Source of the DNA: Verrucomicrobiota bacterium
GTDB taxonomy: Bacteria; Verrucomicrobiota; Verrucomicrobiia; Opitutales; UBA953
Assembly: GCA_026397965.1 (NCBI GenBank)
Contig: JAPLTU010000061.1
Span: 1-44,244, forward strand
Direction of reading: 5' to 3'
DNA length: 44,244 nt
Below the pieces are notes generated by a model. That model saw only the letters and a list, made by a program, of their open reading frames with translations. It searched no databases and was not told where the DNA came from. The translations under genes were made by a program, and so were the position numbers. How positions within the stretch are numbered: position 1 is the first letter of the stretch; the number at the start of each line of letters is the position of its first letter. This document shows, one piece after another, positions 22,889 to 34,787 of this stretch.

Positions 22889-24508
22889 GTGAAGAAAAAT
22901 TCCACCATCTATTTGTTGGCGAATGGCGACCTGCGCGCCTCGGCTAATCAAAAGTGCGAAAGCGCTCAATTGGCCATGGAAGGTTTGCTTTGCGATGCCT
23001 TGCGTCGTGAAGGTCGCAAGGTCAGACGAGCTCATGGTTTTCGTCCTGAAGTCGGACACAGCTTCATTGATTCGCAGAAGTATGGTATGGAAGTTTTTCG
23101 TAAAATTCCCAACGAGGCGCCCCTCATCGTCGCCGAGGCTGTCTGGCAATACTCGCATCACCTTTTGCCGGGTCTTCTGACTCATCGTGGCCCGATTCTA
23201 ACCGTCGCTAACTGGTCAGGCACTTGGCCTGGTCTGGTCGGAATGCTGAATTTGAACGGCTCCCTGCTGAAAGCCGGGGTGCGTTTTTCGACGCTTTGGA
23301 GTGAAGAGTTTACCGATGCGAAATTCCTTAAGGGTTTACGTACTTGGTTGAAGGTCGGTAAAGTTAGCCACCCTACTCCTCACGTCCGTAAACTTGGCAA
23401 AGCATCTTCTAAGGATGCAATCTTGGGTCGACGTTTCGCACAGGAATTCAGACGCCGCAAATCAATCATGGGGGTTTTTGATGAAGGCTGCATGGGGATG
23501 TATAATGCCATTATTCCCGACGAGATCTTGCATCCGACCGGCGTTTTTAAGGAGCGGATGAGTCAATCAAGTCTCTACGCTGCGATGCTGACCGTAAAGG
23601 ACTCGGAGGCCTCAGATGCTTTGCGCTGGCTGGTTAGCAAGGGTTTGACGTTTGACTGGGGTAAGGACGAAAAGACCGAACTCACCCGCCAGCAGACCTT
23701 GACCCAATTAAAGATGTATATCGCGGCCGTGCGTCTGGCCGACGAGTTCGGCTGCGCGACGATCGGTATCCAATATCAGCAAGGGCTTAAAGATCTCGCG
23801 CCAGCTTCGGATCTGGTCGAAGGCTTGCTCAATAATCGAGAGCGTCCGCCCGTGTTTCATGCCCAAAGTGGCCAAGAGTTGTTCAAGGGCGACGCCCTCC
23901 CCCACTTTAATGAGGTCGATGAATGTGCCGGTTTGGATGGTATAATCACCTATGAACTTTGGAAGGAACTTGGTTATGATCCAGAGAACACGCTCCACGA
24001 CTTACGCTGGGGTCGCCAATATAAGGGTAAATCGGGTCGGGGGATGATCGATGAATATGTCTGGGTATTTCTGATTTCCGGTGCCGCACCCGCCAAGCAT
24101 TTTATCGGAGGTTACAAGGGCGCCCGTTCCGAGCGTCAGCCTTCCATGTATTTCCGTCTCGGCGGTGGTACGCTCAAAGGTATTTCCAAACCCGGTTGGA
24201 TTGTCTGGTCTCGTATTTATGTCATGAATGGTAAATTGCACGCTGATCTCGGGCTCGGTGAGGTTGTCGAACTCCCGCAGGCGGAGACCGATGAGCGTTG
24301 GAAACTTACGACTTCGCAGTGGCCAATCATGCATGTGGTCTTACCAGGCATTTCCCGAGATGAGATGATGGCACGCCATCCTTCCAATCACATCCAAGTC
24401 GTGTATGCGCCCTCGCATGAGGCTGCGCGTCGAGGCTTGGCAGCTAAGGCTGCCGCCTTCGCCGAGTTGGGTCTGAATGTTTCCCTCTGCGGAAAGTCAA
24501 AATCCTGA
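22889..24508 (+). CDS. L-fucose isomerase-family ketol-isomerase
   Basis: A 539-residue protein of the fucose/arabinose isomerase fold. Recognisable blocks: [14 protein letters not shown] and [16 protein letters not shown] in the first half. Around residues 285-360, [11 protein letters not shown] and [15 protein letters not shown] supply the acidic metal ligands. Near the C-terminus, [12 protein letters not shown] supplies the histidine expected at the active site. Classical FucI is ~590 residues, so this is a shorter subgroup. In this operon it would turn L-fucose or L-rhamnose into the ketose for the kinase; no RhaA-type isomerase is present. It starts with GTG, 14 bases after the regulator, and ends 2 bases before the aldolase gene. 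Substrate specificity is an inference. Confidence 0.72.
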
Positions 24509-24510
24509 AG

Positions 24511-25276
24511 ATGTCCGCCGAAGCTATCCAAAGTCTGCTTGAACTCTCCCACCAATTAGGCGGCGACCGTCTTCGTATGGCAATCCTCGGTGAAGGGAAC
24601 GCGTCCATCCGCCTCGATGCTCAGACTTTTGCGGTCAAGGCCTCAGGTTCTAACTTGGCTTCGTTGAAGTCGGGCGATGTGACCACCTGTCGTTTCGATT
24701 GTTTGTTGCCCTTGATTGAATCTGATTGAATCCCAAGGAGCTACCGATGCCGAAGTTGATGCGGCATTATTTGCTTCGCGGATCGATGCATCGGCGAAGA
24801 AGCCATCGATCGAGGCACTGTTTCACGCCTACTTGTTGACCTTGCCGGGAGTTAACTGCATCGGCCACGTCCACGCCATCGCCGTGAATCAGATTTTATG
24901 TTCAACAAGGGCACGAGATTTTGCCGAGAAGCGAGCCTGTCCGGATGAGATTGTGATGTGCGGGATCGAATCGGTCTTCGTGCCTTATGCCGACCCTGGA
25001 CTGGGGCTTTCCCAGAGCATCCGCCAAGAGGTCAAAGCTTTTGTCAAGCGCACGGGTCGCGAACCCAAGATCATCTTATTACAGAATCACGGCATCATCG
25101 CCGTTGGGCCCTCTCCTAAGGCTGTCTTAGGGTCGCTCCTGATGGCCGAAAAGGCCGCCGAAGTCTTCGTGGGTGCCGCTGCGCTGGGTGGCCCGGTTTT
25201 CCTTACCTCTGCCCAATGCGAACGAATTGCCGGCCGCCCTGATGAGCATTATCGCCAAAAAATGCTTGGTTTGTGA
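24511..25276 (+). pseudogene. Class II aldolase (fuculose/rhamnulose-phosphate aldolase type), frameshifted by a 10-bp tandem duplication
   Basis: Two fragments make up one class II aldolase. The first (24511-24729) has GEGNASIRL and ASGSNLASL. The second (frame shifted by +1, to 25276) has the catalytic Glu in SIEALFHAYL, zinc ligands HVHA and QNHGIIAVGP, and a normal C-terminus. The break lies at TGATTGAATC repeated exactly twice (24713-24732). Removing one copy restores an uninterrupted reading, LPLIESQGATDAEV, and a normal ~250-residue enzyme. As written, the first fragment stops at 24727-24729. The only restarts are weak, such as TTG at 24716. It would cleave a deoxyketose-1-P to DHAP and lactaldehyde. 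The downstream fused enzyme may cover its loss. Confidence 0.88.
24713..24732 (+). repeat. Exact 10-bp tandem duplication inside the aldolase gene
   Basis: TGATTGAATC occurs at 24713-24722 and again at 24723-24732 with no mismatch. Ten bases is not a multiple of three, so the second copy shifts the frame and creates the premature TGA. The copies have not diverged, so the event is recent, reversible by slippage, or an assembly error. Confidence 0.95.
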
Positions 25277-25302: not shown

Positions 25303-26772
25303 ATGTCCAATTACCTAGCCATCGACCTCGGAGCTGAATCTGGGCGCGTCATCTTCGGCCAGCTTAAGGCCGGCAAGTTTACCATGAAGGAGGTGCACCG
25401 TTTCTCCAACGGCGCCATCACCGCTAATGGAACCCTCCGCTGGGATATCATTCGTATCTTCCGCGAAATCCGCATCGGCTTGGCCAAGGGTGCCAGGCTC
25501 GGTCCAATCAAGTCCGTTGCCTGCGATTCCTGGGGCGTGGACTATGTGCTCCTTAAGGGCGACGGCCCTTTGCTCTCCTTGCCTTTCACTTATCGCGACG
25601 AAAGAAGTTTCAAATCTTATGAAATTGCGATGAAACGTTTTTCGCAGCGGGAGATTTTTGAAGGCACGGGCATCGCATCAATTTCCATCAACACCCTCTA
25701 TCAGCTCTTTGATGATGCGTTGAATCGTCCGGAGATCCTGAATTTTTCAGATAAGTTTCTGCTCATCGGCGACTACATCACCTGGCTCTTGACCGGCAAG
25801 GCCCTTGCGGAAGAGACCTTGATCTCTGGCACTCAGTGCTGGGATACGCGCAAGGAAGATTGGGCCTGGCCGGTCATTAAGAAACTTGGCATCCCCAAAC
25901 ATATTTTTCCGAAAGCCGTAAAGCCGGGTGTGAAATTGGGTAAGATGTTGCCATACCTCGCCAAGGAGACCGGCTTGGGCAAGACCGAAGTCGTCACGAC
26001 CTGTGCTCACGACACCGCTGCTGCTGTCGCTGCTGTGCCCGCCACCAGGGGCGATGACTGGGCTTACCTGTCCTCTGGCACTTGGTCGCTCCTCGGCGTC
26101 GAACTCCCCAAGCCGCTTGTCAACGAGACCGTCCGCAAGGCCAAGTACACCAACGAAGTCGGCTTCGGCGGAACCTCTCGTTTCCTCAAGAATCTCGTCG
26201 GCCTCTGGGTCCTCCAGGAATGCCGTCGCGAGTGGATGGAGAAAGGCGAAGTCTCCGACTATGGTGAGATCGTGAAGCTCGCGCTCAAGGCGCCTTCGCT
26301 CTGCTCGTTCATCCGTCCGGACGACGTCCGCTTCGCCAAGCGCGGCGACATGGTCGCCAAGATCCAAGCTTTCTGCCGCGAGACCAAGCAGCCTGTGCCG
26401 AAGACCCATGGCGAGATTGCCCGCTGCGTGCTTGAATCCCTCGCTTTGCTCTACCGCGTCGAGATGGACGGCATGGAAAAGCTTACTGGTCGCAAACTGA
26501 AGCGGCTGCACATCGTTGGCGGCGGCTGCCGTAACGCCTTGCTCAACCAAGCCACGGCCGACGCCACGGGCCGCACCGTCATCGCCGGACCCGTTGAAGC
26601 GACCGCTGCCGGCAATATCCTTGTCCAGGCGATTGCCATGAAGGAGCTCAAGGACCTCGAAGCCCTGCGCAAGGTCGTCGGAAACTCTTTTGAGGTAGTG
26701 ACTTACACGCCTAACCCCACGTCCGCTTGGGTCGCCGCTCAAGCCAAGTTTAATGGTTTAAATAAGTCATAA
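25303..26772 (+). CDS. rhaB: Rhamnulokinase (FGGY family)
   Basis: Phosphorylates L-rhamnulose (possibly also L-fuculose) at C1. FGGY features: N-terminal phosphate loop AIDLGAESGRV, catalytic Asp region ACDSWGVDYVLL, LIGDYITWLLTG, the RhaB-type AHDTAAAVAAVP and LSSGTWSLLG, and the C-terminal nucleotide motif HIVGGGCRNALLNQ. At 489 residues it equals E. coli RhaB. It lies 26 bases after the broken aldolase and 39 before the fused aldolase/dehydrogenase. From about 26.0 kb onward its codons become strongly C-ending, unlike the isomerase gene before it. Confidence 0.94.
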   Translation: MSNYLAIDLGAESGRVIFGQLKAGKFTMKEVHRFSNGAITANGTLRWDIIRIFREIRIGLAKGARLGPIKSVACDSWGVDYVLLKGDGPLLSLPFTYRDERSFKSYEIAMKRFSQREIFEGTGIASISINTLYQLFDDALNRPEILNFSDKFLLIGDYITWLLTGKALAEETLISGTQCWDTRKEDWAWPVIKKLGIPKHIFPKAVKPGVKLGKMLPYLAKETGLGKTEVVTTCAHDTAAAVAAVPATRGDDWAYLSSGTWSLLGVELPKPLVNETVRKAKYTNEVGFGGTSRFLKNLVGLWVLQECRREWMEKGEVSDYGEIVKLALKAPSLCSFIRPDDVRFAKRGDMVAKIQAFCRETKQPVPKTHGEIARCVLESLALLYRVEMDGMEKLTGRKLKRLHIVGGGCRNALLNQATADATGRTVIAGPVEATAAGNILVQAIAMKELKDLEALRKVVGNSFEVVTYTPNPTSAWVAAQAKFNGLNKS

Positions 26773-26811: not shown

Positions 26812-28965
26812 ATGTCCAACTACAAGTACGTCTCTCACCTCTGGAACGATGCCGAAGCCGCGAAGCTCGATCCGGTCGGCCGTCTGGTCTATCGCTCCAA
26901 TAAACTCGGAGCGGACCAGCGCATCACGAACACCGGCGGCGGAAACACCTCCTCCAAAATCGTCGAGAAGGATCCCCTGACCGGCACCGATACCCAGGTC
27001 CTCTGGGTCAAGGGCTCCGGTGGCGACCTCCGCACCAGCAATCGCGAGAACTTCTCCTCTCTTTATCAGGACAAGCTCGTCGGCCTCCAGCAGTCCTACG
27101 CCGCTCGCGCCGACAAGGGGCTGAAGTCCCAGGCCGAAGACGACATGGTCGGCATGTACAATCACGCCACCTTCAACCTGAACCCGCGCGCGTCCTCGAT
27201 CGATACGCCTCTGCACAGCTTCCTCCCTGGTAAGCATGTCGACCACATGCACCCCAACGCCATCATCTCGATCGCCGCTTCCAAGCACTGCGAAGCCCTG
27301 ACTAAGGAGATCTTCGCCGGTAAGATGGCTTACGTGAAGTGGATGCGCCCGGGCTTCGAGCTCGGCCTCGCCATGCAGGACATCTCCCGCCAGCAGCCCG
27401 CCATCAAGGCCATTATGATGGGCCAGCACGGCTTCATCTCGTGGGCCGACGACGACAAGGCCTGCTATGAGCTGACCCTCGCGATGATCGAGCAGGCCGA
27501 CGCCAAGGTCTTCGGCGGCGCGCTCTACCAGACCCTCGAAACCGAGAAGCGCCATGCGGCCTTCGCCGCCATCCTGCCTTGGCTCCGCGGCCAGGTCTCG
27601 AAGGAGAAGCGTTTCATCGGCACCATCCAGGACGACGAGAAAATCCTCCGCTTCGTTAATTCGAAGGACGCTCCACGCCTCGCCGAACTCGGCACCTCCT
27701 GCCCTGACCATTTCCTCCGCACGAAGATCAAGCCGCTCTATGTGAACTGGAACCCCCAGTCCGAAGACGCCGCCGCGCTGAAGACTAAGCTCGCCGCCGC
27801 CCTTGTGCAGTACCGCAAGGATTACGCCGCCTATTACAACGCCTGCAAGCGCCCGAACTCTCCGGCGATGCGCGACCCGAATCCGACCGTCGTCCTCATC
27901 CCCGGATTGGGCATGATCGCCTGGGGCAAGGATAAGTCCGAATCCCGGGTCACCGCTGAGTTCTACAACTGCGCCGTCGAAGTCATGCGTGGCGCCGAAG
28001 CCATCGACCAGTACATCGCCTTGCCCCAGCAGGAAGCCTTCGACATCGAATATTGGCTACTCGAAGAAGCCAAGCTGAAGCGCATGCCGGCCGAAAAGGA
28101 ACTCGCCCGTCAAATCATCATCGTCGTGGGTGCCGGTTCAGGCATCGGTAAGGAAACCGCGCACCGTCTGGTCAAGGAAGGTGCCCATATCGTCTGCGTC
28201 GACAAGAACGTGGAGGCCGCCCAAGCCACGGCCAAGGAAATCACCGACAAGCTCGGCACGGGTATCGGCGTCGCCGGTACCGGCCTCTCCAACTGCGGCC
28301 CCGCCATCGGTCTCTCTGGTGACATTATGGACCGCTCCTCAATTCGCAAGATGCTCGACCAGGTTGCGCTGGCTTACGGTGGCTTCGATTCCATCTGCGT
28401 CACCGCCGGCATCTTTGTGTCGCCTGACACCACCGGACATATCCCCGACGATAAATGGGCGCTGACTTTCGCGCTTAATGTCACCGGAAGCTACCTCGTC
28501 GCCGACGAAGCCTTTAAGACTTGGAAGGAACAAGGTCTCCGCGGCAATCTTGTGCTGACCACGAGCGCCAATGCTGCCGTGGCGAAAAAGGGTTCCGTCG
28601 CCTACGATACCTCTAAGGCTGCTGCCAATCACCTCGTCCGCGAGATGGCCATGGAGCTTTCGCCGCTGATTCGTGTCAATGGCGTCGCTCCCGCGACCGT
28701 CGTTCAAGGTTCTGCCATGTTCCCGCGCGACCGAGTGATCGCATCGCTTGCGAAGTACAATATTCCCTATACCGATGATGAGGCGACCGATTCGCTGACC
28801 ACGAAGCTCTCCCGCTTCTACGCCGATCGGACTCTGACCAAGAATCCCATCACCCCCGCCGACCAGGCCGAAGCCTACTTCCTACTCGTGACAAATCGCC
28901 TCAGCAAGACGACCGGACAGGTCATCACCGTCGACGGCGGCCTCCACGAAGCGTTCCTGCGCTGA
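26812..28965 (+). CDS. rhaD: Bifunctional rhamnulose-1-phosphate aldolase / short-chain dehydrogenase (RhaEW type)
   Basis: The N-terminal class II aldolase domain (about 1-400) has NTGGGNTSSK, the zinc pair in DHMHPNA (His145, His147) and MGQHGF (His206). It splits rhamnulose-1-P into DHAP and L-lactaldehyde. The C-terminal SDR domain (about 430-717) has the NAD-binding VVGAGSGIGKE near 438-448 and catalytic Tyr598 and Lys602 in YDTSK. In B. subtilis RhaEW, the dehydrogenase half oxidises lactaldehyde to lactate. Size and order match that family. Codon use is strongly biased to C-ending codons, consistent with high expression. The frame immediately after its TGA continues, still in phase, into a LutC C-terminus. 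Confidence 0.95.
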   Translation: MSNYKYVSHLWNDAEAAKLDPVGRLVYRSNKLGADQRITNTGGGNTSSKIVEKDPLTGTDTQVLWVKGSGGDLRTSNRENFSSLYQDKLVGLQQSYAARADKGLKSQAEDDMVGMYNHATFNLNPRASSIDTPLHSFLPGKHVDHMHPNAIISIAASKHCEALTKEIFAGKMAYVKWMRPGFELGLAMQDISRQQPAIKAIMMGQHGFISWADDDKACYELTLAMIEQADAKVFGGALYQTLETEKRHAAFAAILPWLRGQVSKEKRFIGTIQDDEKILRFVNSKDAPRLAELGTSCPDHFLRTKIKPLYVNWNPQSEDAAALKTKLAAALVQYRKDYAAYYNACKRPNSPAMRDPNPTVVLIPGLGMIAWGKDKSESRVTAEFYNCAVEVMRGAEAIDQYIALPQQEAFDIEYWLLEEAKLKRMPAEKELARQIIIVVGAGSGIGKETAHRLVKEGAHIVCVDKNVEAAQATAKEITDKLGTGIGVAGTGLSNCGPAIGLSGDIMDRSSIRKMLDQVALAYGGFDSICVTAGIFVSPDTTGHIPDDKWALTFALNVTGSYLVADEAFKTWKEQGLRGNLVLTTSANAAVAKKGSVAYDTSKAAANHLVREMAMELSPLIRVNGVAPATVVQGSAMFPRDRVIASLAKYNIPYTDDEATDSLTTKLSRFYADRTLTKNPITPADQAEAYFLLVTNRLSKTTGQVITVDGGLHEAFLR

Positions 28966-29205
28966 TTCCGTGCGCATCTCACTTCTCTTTCCATCTTCCC
29001 CCACGTCCACGTTGTTGTTGCGGAAGCCTCTCAGATTGTCCCCGACCTTGGCGCCGCCTTGGCCCTGATGAAGTTTCGCCATGGCGAACAGATGCCCAGC
29101 ATGCTGTCCTTTATCACGGGACCCAGCCGCACCGGTGATATCGAACGTATTCTGGTCCTCGGTGCCCATGGACCGAAGGAACTTTATCTCATCCTTATCG
29201 GCTAA
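28966..29205 (+). pseudogene. Remnant of a LutC-type lactate-utilisation protein (C-terminal ~80 residues)
   Basis: Read in phase directly after the rhaD stop, this stretch encodes 79 residues and a TAA. Typical C-terminal LUD/LutC phrases are VVVAEASQIVPDLGAALALM, LSFITGPSRTGDIE and LVLGAHGPKELYLILIG. The N-terminal ~140 residues of LutC and its own start codon are missing; the first ATG is internal (in ALMKF). LutABC oxidises L-lactate, the product expected from the rhaD dehydrogenase half. The simplest reading is that lutA, lutB and most of lutC were deleted, leaving this tail. Readthrough of the rhaD TGA would give a fusion, but nothing visible supports that. Confidence 0.8.
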
Positions 29206-29210
29206 TTAAA

Positions 29211-32200
29211 ATGCGTTCGGCTTCATTTGTTACGATCTTCGTCGCTACGATTGCCGGCATCGGCGCAGAGATAAAACCAGTCCGGTGGTCCGGTGATCTC
29301 AATGTACCTGACCCCGTAGCCCTCACGGTCGACGAGGTAGGCAACGTCTATGTCTCATCGACCACTCGACGTAAAGCCGCGGACCTCGATATTCGCGAAC
29401 ATGCACTGTGGATTCCTGACGACGTCGCTCTGACTTCTCCTGAAGAGAAACTCGCGTTCTATCAGCGCGAACTGGCTCCTGGAAAACTGAAGACGCCGCG
29501 CGGTGGACTCAAAGATCATAACAAGGACGGCTCGATTGATTGGAAGGACCTGACATTCCCAAAGGAATCGATTTATAAGCTGACCGACACGGACCAGGAT
29601 GGAATCGCGGATAAGATCACGGTCTTCGCAGAGGGCTTCAACTCGCCTGTTTCGGGCATCGCCGCCGGCGTGATGTATTTTGATGGTTGGGTCTACGTCA
29701 CCGCCATCCCAGACGTCTTGCGACTGAAGGATACCGATGGCGACGGTGTCGCCGACATCAAAGAACTCGTCGCCACGGGCTTCGGCGGCCATATCGCCTA
29801 CGCCGGGCATGATATGCATGGACTTCGCCTCGGCCCGGACGGTCGCATCTATTGGAGTATCGGCGACAAGGGTCTGAACGTCACCAGTAAGGAAGGTAAG
29901 AAGTTCTATTACCCCCATCGCGGTGCCGTGCTGCGTTGCGAACCCGACGGAGCGAACTTTGAGGTCTTCGCCCACGGTGTACGTAACATCCAAGAAATTG
30001 CGTTCGATGATTTCGGTAACGTTATCGGCGTAGACAATGATTCTGATCAACCGAAGGAGCGGGAGCGCCTCGTCTACCTGCTGGAAGGTTCCGACTCAGG
30101 CTGGCGATGTCAGAACCAGTACATGAAACTTCAGAGCCGCTGGATGTCGGAAAGCATGTGGATGCCGAAGGGAGCGATGGATCAGCCGCTCTATATCACG
30201 CCGCCGATCACTAATTATTCCGACGGGCCAGCGGGCTTCCTCCACGAACCTGGTCACGCCCTCGATGGAGATCTACGAGGTCACTTCTTCCTCGATCAAT
30301 TTCCCAAAGGAAAGATGGACGCCTTTACCTTGGAGGCCGACCTTGATTCCTTCCGACAAACTAATCTCCGGACCCTAAGCAGCGGCATCATGGGTATCGG
30401 CATGGCCTGGGGCGCAGATGGCAAAGCTTATTTCGCTGATTGGATAGGTGGCTACCCGCTTGACGGTAAAGGGGCTGTCTGGCGATTCGATGTGGCTCCG
30501 AATATCGACAAATCTTCAGAGGAAATACTCTCCAAGCCCTTTTCAGTCTCCATCCCCAAGGACGAACTGCTGGGTCTGCTAGGCCATCGCGATCAACGGG
30601 TCCGTGTAAACGCCTCGATCCGACTGGACCGCCTCGGCGCCTGGGATGACATGCTCGCCTTGGCGAAGAAACCCGATGCCCCCCGCTTTGCCCGTATCCA
30701 CGCCATCTGGGGCTATGGCATGGGCCTTCGACATGGAAAGATTGCCGATGTGACCTCGTCGTTGGCCTTACTCGACGCCGCCGATAGCGAGATCCGCGTA
30801 CAAGCGCTGAAGATATTGAGCGAAGCCAAGCCGTCGTCGGGGCTCGCCCGCAAGGTCGCTGCTCAGCTCAACCACGCCGACCTTCGTGTCCGCACCCAAG
30901 CCGGCATCACGCTCGGCAAGACGTGCACCCACGCGAACTTTTCCTCTTTCCTGCACGACGCCGAGGCCGACCTCCGCCTGCCTTGGCTGCGTCATGGCCT
31001 CGTCAGCGGACTCGCCGGCACGCAGTCCTCCGACGATCTGCTCGTATTTGCCCAGACGAAGACAGGCGCCGAGGCCGTGTTCGCGACACTGGCCCTCGCC
31101 CGGCAAAAATCCTCTTTGCTCGGAAAACTGCTCCATCACTCCAACCCTGATGTCGTCAATGAAGCCGCTCGTGCGATTCATGACGACGAAGGTATACCGA
31201 GCTCCAGTAAGGCGCTTGCCGAAATCTTTGGTGCTTCAGGCCTACCGTTTCAGGCGGCTCGTCGCGCGCTTAATGCCAACTTGCGCCAGGGTGATACGGA
31301 CGCATTGAGCCGCTTGCTTAAGTGGACCTTGGCGCAACCCGCTGGCTCGCCCCTGCACATGGAAGCCTTGCAGGCGCTCATTGTGTTCGATCAGCCACCC
31401 ATACTTGATCGGGTCGACGGTACGGCCAAAAAGTACGAGTCCCGTAATAAAATTGAAATCGGCCAGCTCTTACGGACCCACCAAGACGAACTTCTTGGCC
31501 TTCAGCAATCCGATGAACGCGCCGCTGTGCTCGAATTGATGGTCAAATATGAATTAGACCTCCCCTTCCCTGTCCTGCTCGCCCTCGCCGAAGACCTTAA
31601 AGCCGCCCCAGACGTCCGGCTTCAGGGTCTGCGATTGCTGAGCCAAAAAAATGAACAGCCCGATGCCATTATCCGGACCCTTTGTAACGCCGCCGGAGAA
31701 GGCAATCCCTCTGAAGTTCGCATCGAAGCCGTCAAGCAACTGTTTGTCCGCAATGCCTCTTCTGCCATGGCCATGGCTCGCTTAATCATTAATTCGAAAT
31801 CCGCCAAGATTCCCGAAAAACAAGCCATGGTGATGTTGCTTCGGGGGAGAAATGATCCCGAATCTTCCAAACTTATCCAAGAACTTGTCACCCGGCTTGT
31901 CGCCCGAAAATTAGATTCTGGATTGAAGCTCGACGTGTATGGGCTCGCCCGTCAATCGGTCTCGTCGGAAGTCCTCATGTTGCTCCAAAAATATATCGAA
32001 GCCGGGCCAAAGGGTGGCCTGAAGATGGCATCACCCGAGATTCCTTATGAGTTGCTGACCGATGGGGGCGATGCGAGCCGCGGAAAAGCCCTGATCAATG
32101 GACACCTCGGGGCCAACTGCATCGCTTGTCATCGTGTCGAATCAGATGAGGGCAGTGAGGTCGGGCCTAGCCTCCGCCAGGTAGGCCTGCAACGAACCAA

Positions 32201-32522
32201 GGATGAAATCGCTGAATCATTGGTCGAACCTTCGGCCAAAATCGTCCAAGGTTTTGGTATCGGGACCATCGTGCTAAAAGATGGGACTACTCTTGCAGGT
32301 AGCGTGCTGACGGAAAATTCCAAGACCCTTGATTTCAAGCTAACGGACGGAAAGACGCAAAAAATCTCGCTCCCCTTGATTGCTTCGCGCACCCCGCCCA
32401 TTTCCATGATGCCCCCTATGCTCGGGATTCTTACGCCAGAAGAAATTCGCGATGCCGTGGCCTACCTTTCGGGATTGAAGCCTAAAACGCCTAAAACCAA
32501 GTCGGATAAAGTCAAAAAATAG
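29211..32522 (+). CDS. PVC-type heme-binding membrane-bound dehydrogenase-like protein (beta-propeller, HEAT-like repeats, cytochrome c domain)
   Basis: A 1103-residue exported protein (signal peptide at about 1-19). Residues ~20-420 form a sugar-dehydrogenase-like beta-propeller (HDMHGLRLGPDGRIYWSIGDKG, FAHGVRNIQEIAFD) typical of the Pirellula/Verrucomicrobium N-terminal family. Three acidic DxDxDG-like loops (DHNKDGSIDW, DTDQDGIAD, DTDGDGVAD) look like calcium sites. Residues ~440-900 are helical HEAT-like repeats. The C-terminal domain (about 950-1090) carries heme motif CIACH (Cys970, Cys973, His974) and a Met-rich SMMPPMLGILTPEE for the distal ligand. It probably oxidises an extracytoplasmic sugar or alcohol and passes electrons on. 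It starts 5 bases after the LutC remnant, so it is likely in the same transcript. Confidence 0.92.
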   Translation: MRSASFVTIFVATIAGIGAEIKPVRWSGDLNVPDPVALTVDEVGNVYVSSTTRRKAADLDIREHALWIPDDVALTSPEEKLAFYQRELAPGKLKTPRGGLKDHNKDGSIDWKDLTFPKESIYKLTDTDQDGIADKITVFAEGFNSPVSGIAAGVMYFDGWVYVTAIPDVLRLKDTDGDGVADIKELVATGFGGHIAYAGHDMHGLRLGPDGRIYWSIGDKGLNVTSKEGKKFYYPHRGAVLRCEPDGANFEVFAHGVRNIQEIAFDDFGNVIGVDNDSDQPKERERLVYLLEGSDSGWRCQNQYMKLQSRWMSESMWMPKGAMDQPLYITPPITNYSDGPAGFLHEPGHALDGDLRGHFFLDQFPKGKMDAFTLEADLDSFRQTNLRTLSSGIMGIGMAWGADGKAYFADWIGGYPLDGKGAVWRFDVAPNIDKSSEEILSKPFSVSIPKDELLGLLGHRDQRVRVNASIRLDRLGAWDDMLALAKKPDAPRFARIHAIWGYGMGLRHGKIADVTSSLALLDAADSEIRVQALKILSEAKPSSGLARKVAAQLNHADLRVRTQAGITLGKTCTHANFSSFLHDAEADLRLPWLRHGLVSGLAGTQSSDDLLVFAQTKTGAEAVFATLALARQKSSLLGKLLHHSNPDVVNEAARAIHDDEGIPSSSKALAEIFGASGLPFQAARRALNANLRQGDTDALSRLLKWTLAQPAGSPLHMEALQALIVFDQPPILDRVDGTAKKYESRNKIEIGQLLRTHQDELLGLQQSDERAAVLELMVKYELDLPFPVLLALAEDLKAAPDVRLQGLRLLSQKNEQPDAIIRTLCNAAGEGNPSEVRIEAVKQLFVRNASSAMAMARLIINSKSAKIPEKQAMVMLLRGRNDPESSKLIQELVTRLVARKLDSGLKLDVYGLARQSVSSEVLMLLQKYIEAGPKGGLKMASPEIPYELLTDGGDASRGKALINGHLGANCIACHRVESDEGSEVGPSLRQVGLQRTKDEIAESLVEPSAKIVQGFGIGTIVLKDGTTLAGSVLTENSKTLDFKLTDGKTQKISLPLIASRTPPISMMPPMLGILTPEEIRDAVAYLSGLKPKTPKTKSDKVKK

Positions 32523-32567
32523 CCAATGTGGGGTTGAGTCTGACAGCCATTGGCTTGGAATGCATGC

Positions 32568-34787
32568 ATGCTGCTTCGTTTCCTGTTGCTCTCCCCGCTT
32601 CTGGTCTTCGGTCAGACAACTTTGGTCAGCGATTGGTCAAAACAAATGGATACCTGGGGAAGGCTGGCCCCCATCGTTCGACTCCAGAACGTTAAATGGT
32701 CAGCGAGCGGCCAAAAAATGGTCTATGCCGTTGCAGATGCAGAAGGCCGCATGACATGGAAGTATGTCGATTGCGGTAAAGGCCAAGTGCGTCTGGCGTA
32801 TGATCAGGTCAAATTAATTGACCAACTTTCACTCGCATTGAACCAAAGGGTCTCTCCTCGAAACCTACCATTCAGGTATATCGAGCCGTTGGATGATGGT
32901 CGCATCATTCTTGTTGGGGAAAAACAGTCTTGGACCGTTGAGGCGGATGGTCGGGTTACTCCCAGCAAAGTCCTGGCCACGGCATCCGCCCGAGCTAATG
33001 CGAATTCCAATCGCAGCCGTTCTTCTCTTGCGGATAATTATGCTAACTCCGGTAAGCTTTCCGAGCTTTCCCCGGATGAAAAATGGAAAGTTTCTTTCTG
33101 GGAGGGTAATGTCCTTTTAACCGAGGTGGCCCATCCGAGTAATGTCCTCGTGATGACCTCCGATGGTCAGGCTACCCATCGCTATGTCGGGCCGGTTTCA
33201 TGGTCGCCTGACAGTACCCACTTCGCTCTTTGGCGCGAACAGGTGGCTTCCCCGCGAATGTATAACGTGGTCAATTCGCTCACCAAAAGCGCGAAGAATG
33301 TTCCCTACGCTCGCCCGGGCGATGATATTTCGGAGCGTACGCCGCTGGTCTTTTCCGTCTTAAAGACGGAAGCTTCAGCGCGAGCTTCCCTGGAAGTCTT
33401 GCCGCGATCGTACGAAAATAGCCGACTGGATTGGACGGCTGATTCGACCCGTCTTCGTTCGCAGTATACCGAACGCGGCTTCACCGGACATGGTGTCATC
33501 GAATATGATGTGACGACGAAGCAATGGCGAACGTTGCTCAACGAGCATGATCCCAAGTTTATTTTTACCTCGGGCAGTCGTTTTCGTTACGACCTCGACG
33601 AAAATAGCACGTTATGGGCATCCGAACGCAGCGGCTTCCTTCATCTTTATCACGTCGACCTCCGGTCGGGAGCGACCCTCAAGGCCGTCACTGCGGGAAA
33701 TTGGGTCATGAAACAGGTCAAGTATGTCGATACCAAGGTCCAGGAAGTTGGTTTTATCGCCTTAGGTCGTCAGCCCAACGAAAACCCTTACCAACAGCAT
33801 TTTTGTAAGGCGCCGTTTAACGGGAGTAAGGTCATCGACCTGACGCCGGGTGACGCGGATCATTCCGTTGAATTCGAACCTAACCGTCGCTACCTGATCG
33901 ATACGGCCTCGCGGGTGAATCAGCCGCCTGTTATTACCTTAAGAAGCGGAGAAAATGGCCGCGCCATCGTCCAACTTGAGGCTGCTACGGTGGCACCCTT
34001 GGCGAAGACCAGTTGGCAACCCTTGATCCCTTTCCGCACTAAAGACCGCGAAGGAAAATATGATATCTGGGGCGTCATCCTTCGCCCCTACCCTTTTGAT
34101 TCGCAAAAGAAATACCCGGTTTTGGAGCGTATCTATGCGGGTCCCCACGGCTCCTTCGCGCCCTACAACTTCAATCTAAATAACCGAAGTTTCTATGAGG
34201 CTTCCCTGAGCGGATTCTATGTCGTGCAGATGGACGGACGCGGTACCTATAATCGCGGGAAGGAGTTTCAGCAGCAAATTTGGCGCAACTTGAAAGATGG
34301 TGGATTTCCCGATCGTATCAAATGGATCAAAGCGGCGGCTCAGGTCGAAAAAAATATGGATGTCTCTCGAGTCGGTATTTTTGGCGGCTCCGCCGGTGGA
34401 CAGAATACCGCCCACGCAATGCTCTTCTATGGTGATTTCTATAAGGCCGGGGCGGCCGATTGTGGCTGTTATGACAATCGCATCGATAAGCTTTGGTGGA
34501 ACGAACAATGGTTGGGCTACCCGCTTGGTCCGTGGTATTCGGAGAATTCCTGCGCGACCTACGCGTCTCGCCTAACCGGCAAGCTTTTCCTGACCGTCGG
34601 GGAATCGGACACTAATGTGGATGTCAAATGTACATATGATTTCCGTGATGCTTTATTGGCCGCTGGAAAGAAAGAGCTTTTCCAGCTGCAGGTTGTACCT
34701 GGGGCTAATCACGGGGCCGGCGAAACGGATTCCATGCGTGAGAAGCGGATGCAGTTTTTCGTAGATACCTTAGGCTTACCACGTTAA
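32568..34787 (+). CDS. Exported S9-family (DPP IV-like) serine peptidase
   Basis: Cleaves short peptides, typically releasing dipeptides from the N-terminus, outside the cytoplasm. The start MLLRFLLLSPLLVFG is preferred because it gives a clean signal peptide; a TTG 18 bases upstream is the alternative. The N-terminal half is a DPPIV-type beta-propeller. The C-terminal alpha/beta-hydrolase has its nucleophile in FGGSAGG (Ser608 of 739), the acid in GESDTNV (Asp681) and the His in GANHGAG (His715). YAGPHGSFAPYNF and QMDGRGTYNRGKEF are typical of the family. It follows the heme protein after 45 bases and precedes the next gene by 3. Confidence 0.92.
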   Translation: MLLRFLLLSPLLVFGQTTLVSDWSKQMDTWGRLAPIVRLQNVKWSASGQKMVYAVADAEGRMTWKYVDCGKGQVRLAYDQVKLIDQLSLALNQRVSPRNLPFRYIEPLDDGRIILVGEKQSWTVEADGRVTPSKVLATASARANANSNRSRSSLADNYANSGKLSELSPDEKWKVSFWEGNVLLTEVAHPSNVLVMTSDGQATHRYVGPVSWSPDSTHFALWREQVASPRMYNVVNSLTKSAKNVPYARPGDDISERTPLVFSVLKTEASARASLEVLPRSYENSRLDWTADSTRLRSQYTERGFTGHGVIEYDVTTKQWRTLLNEHDPKFIFTSGSRFRYDLDENSTLWASERSGFLHLYHVDLRSGATLKAVTAGNWVMKQVKYVDTKVQEVGFIALGRQPNENPYQQHFCKAPFNGSKVIDLTPGDADHSVEFEPNRRYLIDTASRVNQPPVITLRSGENGRAIVQLEAATVAPLAKTSWQPLIPFRTKDREGKYDIWGVILRPYPFDSQKKYPVLERIYAGPHGSFAPYNFNLNNRSFYEASLSGFYVVQMDGRGTYNRGKEFQQQIWRNLKDGGFPDRIKWIKAAAQVEKNMDVSRVGIFGGSAGGQNTAHAMLFYGDFYKAGAADCGCYDNRIDKLWWNEQWLGYPLGPWYSENSCATYASRLTGKLFLTVGESDTNVDVKCTYDFRDALLAAGKKELFQLQVVPGANHGAGETDSMREKRMQFFVDTLGLPR

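Follow-up and report, generated by a model that had tools for sequence, protein, structure and literature searches.

RhaEW enzymes make L-lactate in vitro; for the Chloroflexus enzyme, DHAP and lactate were demonstrated as the products, and for the B. subtilis enzyme, activity was demonstrated (PMC3870299). In some Actinomycetales and Rhodobacterales, the rhamnose regulon includes lldD or lldEFG, and a pathway onward to pyruvate was inferred (Rodionova et al. 2013, PMC3870299). Verrucomicrobia are absent from the text of that paper, and in the open-access literature, whose coverage is incomplete, we found no earlier description of these bacteria losing lut. The Opitutae studied here resemble those regulons in their scheme, in which lactate from RhaEW passes through a co-regulated lactate oxidase to pyruvate, yet they differ in having one row, rhaK-rhaD-lutABC, and in that a number of species have secondarily lost the lactate step.

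The window is a stretch of 44,244 nucleotides from the genome of a freshwater Verrucomicrobiota bacterium of the Opitutae (G000; 2.18 Mb, 96.5% complete). We compared it with 54 genomes of the same genus (55 with G000, mostly metagenome assemblies); the near relatives are placed in Opitutae, and many are lake bins (e.g., Lac Pavin, Baikal). L numbers denote locus records. The features around rhaD are as follows.

25303..26772, + strand: rhaK (FGGY kinase), also next upstream in relatives, both intact and scarred (Pfam FGGY; synteny)
26812..28965, + strand: rhaD (RhaEW type), bifunctional rhamnulose-1-phosphate aldolase / L-lactaldehyde dehydrogenase, 717 aa (NF006189, 1079.5 bits, cut-off 634; Pfam Aldolase_II and SDR; alignment)
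28970..28987, + strand: surviving lutA 5' end (GTG start, ~6 codons), not in frame with the following sequence (aligned to the junction between rhaD and lutA in intact relatives)
28984..28987, no strand: deletion junction (breakpoint mapping; 3-4 bp ambiguity)
28984..29205, + strand: lutC 3' remnant, the last ~73 codons and the stop, LUD positions 113-189 (PF02589, E 6e-19; 86% identity to intact LutC 154-226)
29211..32522, + strand: PVC-type haem-binding CxxCH protein (DUF7133, HEAT, cytochrome c), intact, the downstream gene (TIGR02604 / TIGR02603; Pfam; synteny)

The rhaD stop (TGA, 28963-28965) lies directly before the tail, as originally reported, and positions 28966-29202 translate into 79 residues followed by a TAA stop (29203-29205). 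The original prediction read all 79 as the end of LutC. Residues 7-78 matched positions 113-189 of the 189-position LUD model (PF02589; E 6.1e-19; 68.9 bits, cut-off 22.6), and the proposed alignment to LutC showed that the tail covers the last 73 of 226 residues (154-226), with 86% identity to the protein of G003. The reading held for these 73 codons but not for the first 6-7 residues (FRAHLT, S), which are a wrong-frame reading of the spacer between rhaD and lutA and of the first ~6 codons of lutA. The N-terminal two thirds of LutC (~153 residues) are indeed missing; with no full-length LUD domain, the piece counts as a fragment of LutC and not as the protein itself. Likewise, the tail had been described as lacking a start, which is true of the lutC remnant itself but not of the whole tail, because the lutA GTG survives at 28970, though out of frame. 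A LUD match behind rhaD can, as in G000, come from a fragment, and its length should be checked before a working lactate pathway is inferred.

Complete lutA-lutB-lutC followed rhaD in 27 of the 42 genus genomes with a readable post-rhaD stretch, which removes the objection that no relative carries lut genes at this position. Complete or near-complete lut genes were held by 29 of the 55 genomes, and they lay directly behind rhaD in the 27 holders whose contig reaches back into rhaD. Genomes outside the intact and scar counts either lack rhaD or have a contig that stops inside or just behind it. The three closest relatives of G000 (G028, G009 and G024) all carry intact lutABC at the same position. 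Intact relatives share with the LutABC / LldEFG complex the components LutA (CCG), LutB (LUD and 4Fe-4S) and LutC (LUD), in that order (in G028, CCG, LUD + Fer4_8 and LUD, respectively). The G000 remnant is the end of that LutC; unlike the complex, G000 retains a lutC 3' fragment and ~6 lutA codons, and has no functional complex. A more distant relative (L128) has the row rhaD-lutA-lutB-lutC. In L131, a distant Verrucomicrobiota record, the row is rearranged to rhaK-lutA-rhaD-aldolase-lutB-lutC, with lutA before rhaD and lutB-lutC after it. Since the early-branching genus members are intact and both L128 and L131 have lut genes adjoining rhaD, the presence of lut is ancestral.

Breakpoint mapping against G009 and G028 showed that ~2548 bp of lutA-lutB-lutC are missing in G000. 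The lutA start region reads GTGCGCATCTCACTT in G000 versus GTGCGCGTCTCACTT in G009, and the deletion spans lutA codon ~7 to lutC codon ~153, taking most of lutA, all of lutB and two thirds of lutC. Both ends of the block are recognisable (the lutA start at 28970 and the lutC end through 29205), and save for ~6 lutA codons the adjacent lutA and lutB, both present in sister genomes, are absent. The search for lutABC elsewhere in the genome, also proposed originally, was run: across the whole 96.5% complete G000 genome, the domain search found no second LUD domain besides the remnant and no other lut copy. Microhomology was considered as the cause of the deletion; the junctions show just short, ambiguous matches, and we make no claim for it.

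We propose that an ancestral row, rhaK-rhaD-lutA-lutB-lutC-(cytochrome c protein), suffered one ~2.55 kb deletion within the row, with ends at lutA codon ~7 and about lutC codon 153, leaving an inert lutC 3' piece without a start of its own. On the strength of these sequence comparisons, we put at about 95% the probability that the remnant is the scar of one such deletion, among at least 11 distinct scars in the genus. The complete lutABC directly behind rhaD in relatives thereby supports the original proposal of a rha-lut operon that lost lutA, lutB and most of lutC by deletion. The structure of the remnant and the lack of its own start were shown by comparison, and the piece is presumably not translated. 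Because the three nearest relatives are intact, the loss is assigned to one deletion on G000's own branch. In a maximum likelihood rpoB-rpoC tree (7059 columns, 40 genomes), G000 was sister to the intact G028 (97% identity), within a well supported group with the intact G009 and G024; as judged from these sequences, the deletion is recent and followed the split from G028.

The scar of G000 was not alone. In 15 genomes, G000 included, rhaD is followed by a scar, and these represent at least 11 distinct structures: those of G000, G018, G031, G059, G022, G008 and G029, and those common to G019/G020, G010/G014, G034/G062 and G011/G015. The scar of G031 (L064) is composite, with two lutA pieces, a lutB start and a lutC end, and reflects at least two deletions. 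In G011 and G015 (L066 and L065), the first lutA codons are joined directly to the signal-peptide sequence of the downstream cytochrome-c gene, and in G029 both lut and the downstream gene were lost. Elsewhere, in most genus genomes, this PVC-type haem-binding gene (29211 in G000) comes after lutC or the scar. As side observations, lutA's start codon and first codons now form the beginning of the cytochrome-c gene in G011/G015; G058 (L303) has a complete lutABC apart from a frame break near codon 45 of lutC; and the lutC remnant of G059 (L297) has a frame break near codon 196, the breaks in both G058 and G059 being either mutations or sequencing errors. Intact and scarred species are interleaved on the rpoBC tree, requiring at least eight changes, and since the early-branching members are intact, the direction is loss. 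These comparisons indicate that lutABC was lost repeatedly in the genus, by an ordinary deletion mechanism that is here unusually well documented.

It might be argued that the scarred species share one old deletion, or that lut was gained several times by transfer, with no repeated loss in place. The pairs with common scars fit such a history, and G010 and G014 share a junction yet do not group as sisters in the rpoBC tree; some few scars may therefore have spread by recombination (for this pair, a repeated identical event is the other possibility). We nevertheless regard this explanation as very unlikely: the structures differ too often, the interleaving and the intact early branches described above speak against it, and a never-gained state cannot explain the lutA and lutC remnants found in most scars. 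An assembly artefact, in which strains or contig pieces were misjoined and lutABC is really present, would suit the metagenome-type assembly of G000. However, the flanking genes are continuous, the 96.5% complete genome offers no other LUD match, and at least 10 similar scars come from independent assemblies, some of them (G018, G010, G014) within contigs of 150-208 kb, making an artefact extremely unlikely.

The tail could also be a short gene or domain kept for some function of its own, since its 79-codon frame has no stops and its dN/dS to intact relatives is low (0.04-0.13). Towards the two nearest relatives, the value is 0.09-0.13, versus 0.03-0.07 between intact copies; this coding look of the remnant is what is expected of a young deletion, and we do not read it as purifying selection. 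The tail lacks its own start, that of lutA surviving out of frame, and it is gone entirely in G011, G015 and G029; among the other scars, between 0 and ~97 codons of lutC are left, and their frame varies. Moreover, between the two species with a common scar, G019 and G020, 8 scar differences lie at the first two codon positions and 7 at the third; for their rhaD the figures are 14 and 94 (Fisher p 0.0009). This scar decays neutrally, neutrality being demonstrated on it and not on the G000 remnant. Because codon-position bias is gone there, the scars are debris and not short genes, and the chance that the tail is a conserved short gene with a real start, under purifying selection, is close to negligible. 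As for the phase that the tail shares with rhaD, originally ascribed to either chance or the deletion end point, the lutC remnant lies in frame 0 relative to rhaD in G000, in frame 2 in G018 and in frame 1 in G019, G020 and G059. Because the other scars sit in other frames, the common phase is chance, and no meaning attaches to it.

The G000 rhaD belongs to the RhaEW family by its class II aldolase and SDR domains and an equivalog score above the cut-off. It carries a private 39-bp in-frame deletion that removes 13 residues after ..LTLAMIEQA; these are kept in all relatives inspected, other families included, where RhaD has 730 aa. The remainder of the gene is under strong constraint (dN/dS 0.03 to G009). 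In addition, a 10-bp tandem duplication at 24713-24732 (TGATTGAATC x2) puts the upstream class II aldolase gene at 24511-25276 out of frame. Relatives have a single copy of the unit and an open frame, the duplication being private to G000. The duplication and the rhaD deletion may mark the onset of decay of the entire rhamnose pathway in G000, or may be assembly errors.

Other genes of the window also varied among relatives. A sugar isomerase-like gene (22889-24508; weak L-fucose isomerase match, no NCBIfam match) lies between a DeoR regulator and the aldolase; it is in the same place in some relatives and was not found there in many others. The S9-type peptidase at 32550-34787 is 96% identical to that of G028 (L112) and 89% to that of G009 (L103, partial), and has just about 50-57% identity to most other relatives, unlike neighbouring genes. 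From these identities, replacement of the peptidase gene by transfer is possible.

What, then, becomes of the lactate? From family knowledge, we take the RhaD/RhaEW of intact relatives to convert rhamnulose-1-phosphate to DHAP and L-lactate and their LutABC to convert L-lactate to pyruvate; the presence of LutABC there fits a lactate-oxidising role after RhaEW. L-lactate production by the G000 RhaD is predicted from its family, with the 13-residue deletion adding uncertainty. An LldD replacement was not apparent, as G000 has no FMN_dh match and the genus only weak matches below the cut-off; neither lactate permease (LldP) nor the LarA lactate racemase was found in the 55 genus genomes. A candidate NAD lactate dehydrogenase, the sole Ldh_1 protein of G000, proved to be a malate dehydrogenase (491 bits, cut-off 271). 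A GlcD-type FAD oxidase with a neighbouring 4Fe-4S gene lies on contig 46 of G000 and is present too in the intact G009 and G028; as a lut replacement it was rejected, showing no significant tie to scars (10/14 vs 9/21, p 0.17; independent pairs, median p 1). Because the searches for LldD, for a lactate permease or racemase and for a true LDH all came back empty, rhamnose-derived L-lactate has no recognisable sink in G000. G000 would retain rhamnulose-1-phosphate cleavage and have lost lactate oxidation, so that the lactate it forms from rhamnose probably leaves the cell or enters some unrecognised route, putative export being the simplest reading.

Taken together, these findings add repeated parallel lut loss to the single scar of G000. 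The scars resemble the pseudogenes and scars of reductive evolution in having partial genes at both ends of the block, neutral decay (seen in the G019/G020 scar) and repeated loss in related species; they differ in how many independent events can still be read, an unusual number for one operon position within a genus. A speculative and rather doubtful idea is that the genus adaptively sheds the last step of rhamnose catabolism, retaining DHAP and NADH and giving away L-lactate, with lactate cross-feeding driving at least 10 parallel lutABC deletions; if true, it would imply a community-level division of labour through lactate in freshwater Opitutae. Independently of that idea, genomes of a single genus display this metabolic module whole, recently deleted or erased. 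Such a natural series lends itself to the question of why lactate oxidation can be dispensed with in rhamnose use, and it predicts in which lake bacteria the lactate formed from rhamnose may be released.
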